A stretch of DNA of 64,000 nucleotides from Deltaproteobacteria bacterium (lineage in GTDB: Bacteria > Myxococcota > JADLHZ01): contig JADLHZ010000091.1 in assembly GCA_020848545.1 (NCBI GenBank), positions 1-64,000 of the forward strand, given 5' to 3'. Shown piece after piece: positions 18,425-29,238 of the stretch. The notes beneath the pieces were generated by a model. It did not search any database. It was not told where the DNA came from and saw only the letters and a program-made list of their open reading frames with translations. Made by a program: the position numbers and the translations under genes. Positions within the stretch are counted from its first letter, which is position 1. Every line of letters begins with the position of its first letter.

Positions 18425-18432
18425 GACGTCGC

Positions 18433-18516
18433 GATGGCGATGGCGATGGCGATGGCGATGGCGATGGCGATGGCGATGGCGATGGCGATGGCGATGGCGA
18501 TGGCGATGGCGATGGC
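18433..18516. repeat. Hexanucleotide tandem repeat (GATGGC)14
   Basis: Fourteen perfect copies of GATGGC fill the gap between two convergent genes (stop at 18424 and stop at 18522-18524). Read on the reverse strand it would encode alternating Ala-Ile, but it lies outside both coding frames. Shorter runs of the same hexamer occur at 27712-27729 and 29183-29212. It is likely to vary in copy number by slippage. Confidence 0.95.
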
Positions 18517-18521
18517 GCCGG

Positions 18522-27711: not shown

Positions 27712-27729
27712 AATGGCGATGGCGATGGC
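27712..27729. repeat. Short GATGGC run
   Basis: One degenerate (AATGGC) and two perfect copies of the hexamer that is repeated 14 times at 18433-18516. It lies just outside the left inverted repeat of the four-helix-bundle island. Confidence 0.7.
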
Positions 27730-27732
27730 GGC

Positions 27733-27897
27733 CGGTGCGATCGGAAGCGAGGCGAGGCCGCGCCAGCCAACTGCCGCTGGCACTAGCCTCGCACGCTGAC
27801 GATCTCGTCGCAGACGATCGGGCAGCGTCACGTACACGACGCGTGAGTCATCATCCACCTCCGAAGGCGGGGCACAGGAGGTGGATGATGACTCACG
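27733..27897 (+). repeat. Left arm of a 165-base imperfect inverted repeat
   Basis: Its reverse complement aligns without gaps to 29006-29170. The outer 62 bases (27733-27794 against 29109-29170) differ at two positions, the middle 47 bases are diverged, and the inner 56 bases form a hairpin. Both copies read inward, toward each other, and each ends in AGGAGGTGG followed by ATGATGACTCAC. It looks like a duplicated upstream region plus start of the same gene. Confidence 0.85.
27842..27897 (+). promoter_or_regulatory. 21-bp hairpin carrying a ribosome site and start codons, left copy
   Basis: A perfect 21-bp stem (27842-27862 with 27877-27897) encloses a 14-base loop. The 3' arm contains GGAGGTGG and ATGATGACTCAC, so folding of the RNA would sequester both the Shine-Dalgarno and the start codons. 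It now drives only a gene fragment. Confidence 0.75.
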
Positions 27898-27985
27898 AGA
27901 TCGAACACGAAGCGAAGTTGGAAGGTGTTACGAAGCGGCAGTTCGCACACGAAGGGGCCGCGGTGGGCCACTTGCTGACGCCCGG
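27885..27985 (+). pseudogene. 5' fragment of an S23-type four-helix-bundle gene
   Basis: From the hairpin start the frame encodes MMTHEIEHEAKLEGVTKRQF, clearly related to MMTHEADTETEAKYSRYEKL at the start of the intact gene on the other side of the island. After some 20-30 codons the resemblance to the family ends and the frame runs antisense through the small reverse-strand gene below. I read it as a truncated second copy. Confidence 0.55.
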
Positions 27986-27989
27986 GGGC

Positions 27990-28202
27990 TCAGGCCAGAG
28001 CGGCGAGCGTCTTGGTCAATTTCGGAGAGAGCTGGATCTCGGCGAACAGCCTCCGCGGATAGACATAGTCTTCTCCGGACTCATCGATCACACGAACGGC
28101 GCCCACGTCCTTTGCGTCCGGATCAGGGATCAGCGCATAGATCTTGCGCAGCTCGAGCGACGCCCGATAGCCCCCATTCGATACGCATACGGCGAGGCTC
28201 AC
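27990..28202 (-). CDS. Small conserved-looking hypothetical protein
   Basis: 70 residues from a GTG at 28202: SLAVCVSNGGYRASLELRKI, then YALIPDPDAKDVGAVRVIDE and SGEDYVYPRRLF. The compact alpha/beta pattern and the phrase VRVIDESGEDYVYP remind me of small hypothetical proteins found next to a second tiny protein in many bacteria, as here. That is memory, not a search. It lies 7 bases downstream of the companion ORF ending at 28210 and is probably co-transcribed with it. Function unknown. Confidence 0.6.
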   Translation of the reverse strand: MSLAVCVSNGGYRASLELRKIYALIPDPDAKDVGAVRVIDESGEDYVYPRRLFAEIQLSPKLTKTLAALA

Positions 28203-28209
28203 CTTGCGG

Positions 28210-28302
28210 CTAGGCGATGACCCGCTTGACCTTGAATTCTTTCCTGCCAATGCCGTGCGCCTCATACCAGTGGACCTCTGCCGTAAAACTGCGACCTTCC
28301 AT
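28210..28302 (-). CDS. Tiny hypothetical protein, companion of the 70-residue ORF
   Basis: At least 30 residues (MEGRSFTAEVHWYEAHGIGR then a Lys-rich tail). The coding pattern (KGIAKVR) continues up to about 28326, where only a CTG is available, so the true start may be upstream of the ATG at 28302. The sequence looks genuinely protein-coding and pairs with the following ORF. It is too short for standard ORF finders. Function unknown. Confidence 0.5.
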   Translation of the reverse strand: MEGRSFTAEVHWYEAHGIGRKEFKVKRVIA

Positions 28303-28597
28303 TCGTACTTTAGCAATACCCTTCAGTTTACGCCGCCGCCCCTCACTGCTCTCTCGCCCTCTACCTTGGTTTTCATCGCTGCTTCGCGTGTTCGGTCGAT
28401 CCACTCCACCTCTCGGCGCTCGCTGATCGATAGGCGGGGCAACAATAGGTATGAGTGATACCGGGGTGTTCAGGCTCGACCGACTGACCGAGCTTGCCGG
28501 CGATGCCGCCCAAGCGATCGCCGGATGATGTTCTGATCCCCTTCGGACGAAGGGTTGCGGAGTGCTTCGCGGGCTCAGCCGCTGAGCAGAAGCATCG
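28303..28597. other. Non-coding spacer inside the inverted-repeat island
   Basis: About 300 bases with no credible ORF on either strand. It probably contains the promoter of the two small reverse-strand ORFs. G+C appears somewhat lower near 28300-28460 than in surrounding genes. Confidence 0.45.
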
Positions 28598-28631
28598 CGC
28601 TGCCCGCCGGGGGGTCGCCCCGCGGGCAGCG
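28598..28631 (-). terminator. Hairpin downstream of the four-helix-bundle gene
   Basis: A perfect 10-bp stem (CGCTGCCCGC with GCGGGCAGCG) has a G/C-rich 14-base loop and lies 13 bases past the stop of the S23-type gene. No T run follows, so it may be an mRNA 3'-end stabiliser rather than an intrinsic terminator. Confidence 0.5.
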
Positions 28632-28643
28632 TTGCCTGCGGCA

Positions 28644-29018
28644 TCAACCCGCGAGGCCGCGCAACGTCGCCGCGAGCCGGAGCAGGAGTGCGCGCAGCGC
28701 TCGGTACTCGGCTTCGTCGAAGGCACCGAAGTCGAGCGCGATGTCGAGCGCCGCGCCGGCTTCGGTCGCTTCCGAGAGGGCGATGCGGAAGTGCCGCCGG
28801 CCTTCGGCTCCGAAGTGCGACGCTCCTGACGCGAGGTTCGTTTGCGCTCCGACGACGGCACGTTCGAGCTGCGGCCCCGCTTCGCCCGGCAGCCCGCGCA
28901 GCTTCGCCCGCCGCGCCGCGACGAACTGCGTCGCTCGCCGCGCCAACCCGTACGCGTCGAGCTTCTCGTACCGAGAATACTTCGCTTCAGTTTCAGTGTC
29001 GGCTTCGTGAGTCATCAT
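28644..29018 (-). CDS. S23/IVP-type four-helix-bundle protein
   Basis: 124 residues. EKLDAYGLARRATQFVAARR, NLASGASHFGAEGRRHFRIA and ALDIALDFGAFDEAEYRALR are arranged as four helices in the order of S23/IVP proteins, which were first found encoded in intervening sequences of 23S rRNA genes; related bundles (Avd) act with diversity-generating reverse transcriptases. No reverse transcriptase or rRNA is nearby. The start codons (29018 and 29015) lie in the 3' arm of a 21-bp hairpin together with AGGAGGTGG. The members' cellular role is generally unknown. Confidence 0.75.
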   Translation of the reverse strand: MMTHEADTETEAKYSRYEKLDAYGLARRATQFVAARRAKLRGLPGEAGPQLERAVVGAQTNLASGASHFGAEGRRHFRIALSEATEAGAALDIALDFGAFDEAEYRALRALLLRLAATLRGLAG

Positions 29019-29061
29019 CCACCTCCTGTGCCCCGTCCTCGGAGGTGGATGATGACTCACG
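29006..29061 (-). promoter_or_regulatory. 21-bp hairpin carrying the ribosome site and start of the S23-type gene
   Basis: A perfect 21-bp stem (29006-29026 with 29041-29061) with a 14-base loop. On the reverse strand the 3' arm holds GGAGGTGG and ATGATGACTCAC, the translation start of the four-helix-bundle gene. The stem is identical to that of the left copy while the loop has changed, which argues for selection on the pairing. Confidence 0.8.
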
Positions 29062-29170
29062 CGCCGCCCACCTGACGCCGCTCACTCGTCTACGACGCCG
29101 GCTGTGGCGTGCGAGGCCAGTGCCAGCGGCAGTTGGCTGGCACGGCCTCGCCTCGCTTCCGATCGCACCG
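29006..29170 (-). repeat. Right arm of the 165-base imperfect inverted repeat
   Basis: Partner of 27733-27897; see there for the alignment. On the reverse strand it forms the 150-base region upstream of the S23-type gene, so it probably contains that gene's promoter. Confidence 0.85.
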
Positions 29171-29182
29171 CGCCGCAGTGGC

Positions 29183-29212
29183 GATGGCGATGGCGATGGC
29201 GATGGCGATGGC
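29183..29212. repeat. (GATGGC)5 tandem repeat
   Basis: Five perfect copies of the hexamer also found at 18433-18516 and 27712-27729, in the same orientation, just outside the right inverted repeat and 27 bases from the stop of the cyclic-nucleotide-binding gene. Confidence 0.9.
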
Positions 29213-29238
29213 GAATCGAATCGGAGCGGAGTGAGGGG

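Follow-up and report, generated by a model that had tools for sequence, protein, structure and literature searches.

S23-family structures and annotations go back many years, yet what these proteins do is not known, and where the intervening sequences of 23S rRNA come from is likewise an open question. In Coxiella, the intervening sequence is described as a selfish element of 428 nt that lies in helix 45 of the 23S rRNA, carries an S23 open reading frame whose expression as protein is doubtful, ends in a 28-bp terminal stem and is excised by RNase III (PMC4990558). The family PF05635 has been described as resembling Avd of the diversity-generating retroelements (DGRs) (PMC10053308). Two further systems of related architecture have been described: REPs carry GTAG or CGTC tags and are arranged as inverted doublets in REPINs and BIMEs (PMC3116915, PMC3733652), and in IS200 a stem-loop at the 5′ end of tnpA hides the ribosome-binding site (PMC12594629).

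The DNA analysed here, which we refer to as the window, is a stretch of 64,000 nt (contig JADLHZ010000091.1) from the genome of a deltaproteobacterium assigned to the Myxococcota. It holds an element of 1.4 kb with one intact S23 gene, inverted hairpins at its ends (U-hairpins) and a further hairpin over the ribosome-binding site and ATG of the gene (the start hairpin). The explanation that we favour, with a probability of about 60%, is that the start hairpin belongs to a small mobile ‘S23 element’ related to the intervening sequences of 23S rRNA, and that this hairpin locks translation of the element's gene. The element shares with the intervening sequences its shortness, S23 as sole gene and complementary ends around the S23 frame, but it is intergenic instead of lying inside a 23S rRNA gene, Rfam at its gathering threshold gives no match anywhere in the window, and inverted U-hairpins and a start hairpin are present. 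It resembles REPINs and BIMEs in its inverted doublet of small imperfect palindromes and in having dispersed copies with or without a gene; it differs in the absence of the foot tag and in coding for S23, not for a Y1 transposase. Like the reported stem-loop of the IS200 tnpA leader, the start hairpin covers a ribosome-binding site, both the Shine-Dalgarno (SD) sequence and the start codon being base-paired in the mRNA fold predicted here, whereas IS200 codes for a Y1 transposase and the stem of the S23 element turns over in sequence between copies. Finally, the predicted four-helix-bundle fold is that of Avd, but no reverse transcriptase match was found in the window genome. Literature searches covering open-licence papers gave no description of a hairpin-ended S23 element. 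Because it is free-standing, with hairpin ends, a candidate empty site and a hairpin over the start codon, such an element brings both the function of S23 and the origin of the intervening sequences within reach of experiment.

The start hairpin, its gene and its copies

The start hairpin occupies positions 29006–29061 on the minus strand. Its arms (29006–29026 and 29041–29061) are complementary at 21 of 21 positions around a 14-nt loop, which confirms the original prediction of a perfect 21-bp hairpin over the translation start. The 3′ arm, read on the minus strand from 29026 to 29006, is GGAGGTGG-ATG-ATG-ACT-CAC and thus includes the SD and two ATG codons. Perfect inverted repeats of at least 16 bp with a loop of 3–60 nt occur in the whole window only here and at the hairpin's own copy (27842–27897); two first-order Markov shuffles of the window gave none longer than 12 bp, and the chance expectation of the start hairpin from base composition is about 6e-6. 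Folded as RNA, the 181-nt leader has a predicted energy of −105.8 kcal/mol and a z-score of −8.9 relative to 200 shuffles; the SD and both ATGs are paired. The S23 gene runs from 29018 to 28644 on the minus strand if read from ATG1 (29018–29016), which stands just 3 nt from the GGAGG; ATG2 (29015–29013) is better spaced, at 6 nt. A terminator-like hairpin with 14-bp arms (93%) follows directly after the stop codon, at 28598–28631 on the same strand.

The encoded protein scores 26.1 bits against TIGR02436, above the cut-off of 24, and 30.3 bits against PF05635, below the cut-off of 33.8; a phmmer search against PDB sequences gave no match. An AlphaFold model built from four sequences (pLDDT 90.6) predicts a four-helix bundle like that of the solved S23 members, matching 2gsc with E 9e-5 and 2rld with Z 16.5 over 108 residues at an rmsd of 1.8. 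Avd (4dwl, 8ub7) comes next in the structure match, at Z 12.7–13.5, which is about the level that helical bundles reach through their common arrangement alone. A second S23 gene in the window genome, on contig C7, encodes a protein 93% identical to that of the window; 26 synonymous and 6 non-synonymous substitutions separate the two genes. Judged by the resulting dN/dS of 0.07 between these two genes, S23 is under purifying selection.

Genome-wide there are four copies of the leader: the one described above, the copy at 27842, an intact copy at C7:175669 with the second S23 gene, and a copy at C68:47243 that is broken off within the loop, its 3′ arm and gene lost. The copy at 27842–27897 lies in the same element on the plus strand, in the opposite orientation, with an intact stem beside a decayed S23 gene. 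It had been noted before as a second copy in which the stem was kept while the loop changed. The first part of that statement stands; the second does not, as the copy is inverted and the loops, read in one orientation (GAGGACGGGGCACA and GAAGGCGGGGCACA), are alike at 12 of 14 bases. Among the three copies that retain both arms, the arms show 0 differences in 42 positions whereas the remaining leader differs at 19–20 of 72–76, and none of them departs from the conserved pairing. Positions 27885–27917 on the plus strand, within the frame 27735–28220, are probably all that is left of another S23 gene, convergent with the first, as judged by eye from the likeness of MMTHEIEHEAK to MMTHEAETETK. A small minus-strand frame between the two start hairpins (27990–28316; ..YALIPDPDAKDVGAVRVIDESGEDYVYP..) has no Pfam match.

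Start hairpins across S23 genes

Across a phylum set of 195 genomes, PF05635 matches occur in 56, with at most 23 per genome. From the matches listed, 120 stretches were chosen and joined to the loci collected earlier; removal of duplicates (matches identical over their first 150 nt) and of domains starting less than 60 nt from the end of a stretch left 179 S23 genes, which are not independent, some genomes contributing many. An inverted repeat scoring at least 12 was found near the start of 81 of the 179, compared with 16 of 358 stretches taken from these loci as controls; some of the control hits may themselves be leaders of other S23 genes. An in-frame ATG falls within the 3′ arm in 50 of these hairpins and just downstream of it in 24; four hairpins lie far upstream and three are placed otherwise. 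Two of the four far-upstream hairpins (L221 and L227) also carry an ATG, bringing the total to 52. Three rows were then dropped, leaving 78 hairpins with 55 distinct arm pairs. In 49 of the 78 the SD falls between −1 and +1 relative to the 3′ arm, and the ATG has an offset of 8–14 in 52 of 52. The predicted probability that the stretch from SD to ATG is unpaired has a median of 0.087 for 50 S23 genes and 0.369 for 25 other genes. Burial of the start, as originally proposed, is well supported by this difference and by the recurrence of differing stems across genera.

These observations suggest that the start hairpin would act as a translational lock. A transcript entering from outside the element would carry the full stem and leave S23 untranslated, and the protein would be made only if the stem opens or if a transcript begins inside or after the 5′ arm; we propose that read-through transcripts stay untranslated by analogy with IS200, which is reported to achieve this with a stem-loop of its own (PMC12594629). 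Two observations stand against a simple lock. A start hairpin is absent from 98 of the 179 genes, so the idea that every S23 gene has one was rejected, and in genome G024 divergent S23 pairs (L127–L131) have one common central hairpin that precedes the SD of each gene. Among eight plasmid S23 genes of other phyla, none had a start hairpin over the start. At an S23 locus of another phylum, on a Gemmatirosa plasmid (L296, NZ_CP007129.1), an inverted pair of hexamer-like arrays precedes the start of the S23 match by about 100 nt; a Picosynechococcus plasmid (L293, NZ_CP016476.1, 686–1042) has an S23 gene within a type III-B CRISPR operon, flanked by cas10/cmr2 and cmr3.

The pairing is kept while the sequence of the stem turns over. 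When 26 distinct 13-bp segments were registered on the ATG, 324 of 338 cells were Watson-Crick pairs (178 when shuffled, sd 6.9), and there were 128 two-sided changes (37.8 when shuffled, sd 4.4) against 4 G-U and 3 A-C. Why so large a turnover has left almost no wobble intermediates is a puzzle in itself. In the 55 distinct stems, with 1,174 pairs, the 43 mismatches comprise 9 G-U, 13 A-C, 18 pyrimidine-pyrimidine and 3 purine-purine, though the search penalised mismatches, so that few are to be expected, and the copies are related. The probability of no more than 9 G-U among 22 is 6e-5 if the G-U share were 80% and 0.01 if it were two thirds. This shortage of wobble pairs, with G-U no commoner than A-C, argues that the pairing is not kept solely in the mRNA.

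Because G-U mismatches do not exceed A-C, a role in the DNA is a live rival to the lock, and one that we regard as a possible explanation, though clearly the less probable of the two. The start hairpin would then act as an extruded cruciform, or in single-stranded DNA at replication forks, and the machinery of mobilisation would read it jointly with the U-hairpins, as happens with the hairpins of IS608 or REPs; burial of the start would be a side effect, and template switching would keep the arms perfect. The two-sided changes with hardly any G-U or A-C between them, the common hairpin of the divergent genes in G024 and the intact stem beside the decayed gene at 27842 all fit such a role. Set against it is the register of the stem top, which in most families is fixed relative to the SD and ATG in the manner expected of a role in translation. 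The remark that closed the original prediction, that at the DNA level the stem could be a signal of another kind, nevertheless deserves more weight than it was given, since 9 G-U against 13 A-C mismatches is unlike what selection for mRNA pairing alone would be expected to leave.

It is unlikely, in our view, that the start hairpin serves autoregulation by putative binding of S23 to its own mRNA, the idea called attractive when the hairpin was first noticed. Avd, which has the same fold, has been solved inside the DGR ribonucleoprotein (8ub7 and others), the S23 gene is under apparent purifying selection, and 37 of the 55 distinct stems have loops whose last three bases are TGA or CGA, a possible recognition mark. 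The loop in the window genome ends in ACA, however, and the stem sequences differ so widely that recognition would need to be by shape. A stop codon of a leader peptide (TGA) in the loop was also considered and rejected, as the loops end in CGA, CAA or ACA in other families. To our knowledge, RNA thermometers are shorter than a perfect 21-bp stem containing GC pairs.

U-hairpins, layout and probable mobility of the element

The hairpin had been read as a plain leader; its surroundings instead place it in a larger, putatively mobile element with U-hairpins at its ends. U-hairpins, with the approximate sequence GCAGGCUCGCGCCAGC..GCUGUCACUGCGCCUGCA, occur upstream of many start hairpins. In the window one lies at the S23 end on the minus strand (29110–29151) and one, inverted, at the other end on the plus strand (27752–27793), scoring 49.9 bits (E 2e-7) and 49.5 bits (E 2.5e-7) with R1, the covariance model of the U-hairpin. 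The whole element, from U-hairpin to inverted U-hairpin, thus spans 27752–29151 (1,400 bp), its true outer ends being somewhat further out. An array of (GGCGAT)n at 29180–29214 stands beside the S23 end and a short one (GCCATC on the minus strand) at 27713–27729 beside the other. A further (GGCGAT)n array is found in the window at 18431–18520, and others are scattered genome-wide, most without S23. In an alignment of 27 U-hairpins, hand-picked with that structure in mind, 45 cells show two-sided changes and 1 a one-sided change, a ratio that again favours a role in the DNA, and the covariation score is 0.409 compared with 0.119 when shuffled and at most 0.086 when slid. Two non-pairs recur in most U-hairpins (C-A and C-U within GCGCCA/TGTCAC; for example L139, 1680–1723), whereas others, the 29110 copy of the window among them, have complete pairing at these positions.

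A scan of the 195 genomes with R1 gave 59 matches in 12 genomes, 52 of them beside an S23 gene or S23 fragments. The remaining seven are the pair of the remnant L262, three matches without an S23 match (L266, L267 and L263, the last truncated by the end of its contig), the remnant on C68 and a false match inside an unrelated gene in G053. S23 loci of other lineages had no U-hairpin: 100 further loci gave 7 R1 matches, all of them at S23 genes in genomes where R1 had already matched, some of these loci being included for a second time. A start hairpin is present in 42 of the 45 S23 genes with an upstream U-hairpin and in 37 of the 134 without. Inverted U-hairpin pairs enclose one S23 gene in units of 546, 552, 586, 570, 639 and 552 bp and a convergent S23 pair in a unit of 918 bp, and L262 is a unit of 494 bp with both ends and an internally deleted S23. 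The downstream inverted partner was found for 21 of the 45 U-hairpin-bearing genes, a count that counts against the element as defined here, although several loci end too early. Of 159 S23 genes, 55 have a hexamer array scoring at least 24 upstream, and 41 of 163 have one downstream; 179 shuffled stretches contain none. For U-hairpins the covariance-model scan is used, because a regular expression was too loose to serve as evidence (54 hits upstream, compared with 24 genes hit on the opposite strand and 13 downstream). The motif TGGCACN4-6YYGC, present upstream of 15 and downstream of 3 of the 179 genes, was considered as a sigma-54 promoter within the U-hairpin and rejected, since most copies lack the GG and read TGTCAC, and lengthening of the outer stem alters the spacing. 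Three sub-threshold Rfam microRNA matches in 15 loci were taken as chance matches to long stems, and PADLOC gave no match.

Movement of the S23 element would be indicated by the dispersal of its copies and by an empty site. The closed genome G073 has four convergent-pair copies, mostly 92–94% identical, within hexamer arrays. In G060 the element at L145 sits between two genes whose ends are about 720 bp apart, compared with 14–29 bp in G061 and G062; the element is absent from this site in the latter two, related genomes, which makes it a candidate empty site, though a loss could also explain it. At one site of G073 both flanks are present in G076 with no S23 match between them, a less clean case as another repeat is absent there too. 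Inspection of the element flanks by eye gave no convincing target duplication; exact ends and target duplications are hard to place because the hexamer arrays evolve fast.

Neither a transposase nor a reverse transcriptase is tied to the element, which counts against the favoured reading. That it is a REPIN-like unit moved by a Y1 (RAYT) transposase, with S23 as a passenger, is a slightly weaker candidate than autoregulation. Besides the inverted doublets, Y1_Tnp matches in 24 of 28 genomes agree with it, as do the counts within one genus, 13–21 per genome where S23 is carried (G059, G060, G063 and G064) and 1–4 where it is not (G058, G061 and G062). The transposase is widespread, however, and present in S23-free genomes, while G051 has the element and no Y1 match, and G073 a single match below the cut-off. 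Moreover, no significant R1 match was found at 12 Y1 loci, and a GTAG or CGTC tag lies within 6 nt of either foot in just 2 of 51 U-hairpins; the Y1 transposase was therefore set aside as the mover. It is improbable that S23 is instead a non-mobile gene, passed on vertically with its regulatory leader and duplicated on a few occasions: purifying selection and the mere four leader copies in the window genome would suit this, but the defined inverted ends, the internally deleted L262 with both ends, the many dispersed copies and the putative empty site speak against it. Movement by reverse transcription, with S23 as an Avd-like partner, can be dismissed as highly improbable despite the resemblance of the folds, RVT_1 having no match in the window genome (G000, completeness 100) or in G059, G060, G063, G071, G076 and G014.

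If the S23 element is mobile and its gene locked, as we prefer, the S23 protein, a predicted helical bundle with the fold of Avd and the intervening-sequence protein, might be a nucleic-acid chaperone acting on the element's own hairpins, and the chemistry of movement would be supplied by the host or by another element. A bolder proposal, which is speculative and rather unlikely to hold as a whole, is that S23 elements form a self-spreading class in which the only protein, a four-helix bundle with no enzyme activity known, would tell hairpins by their shape and draw on host replication or repair to copy the element. The rRNA intervening sequences, Avd of the DGRs and the S23 genes of host operons would then be rRNA-inserted and domesticated branches, and the start hairpin would be both lock and DNA signal, its perfect pairing due to template copying as opposed to gradual compensatory changes.

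A different frame also lies between hexamer arrays in G073: at L228 (5701–6876) an HNH-endonuclease-like open reading frame is found, with about 20 copies in that genome and many in G072 and G076. Its SD is placed in the loop of a short hairpin (GGTGCAC-AAGGAG-GTGCACC-ATG).
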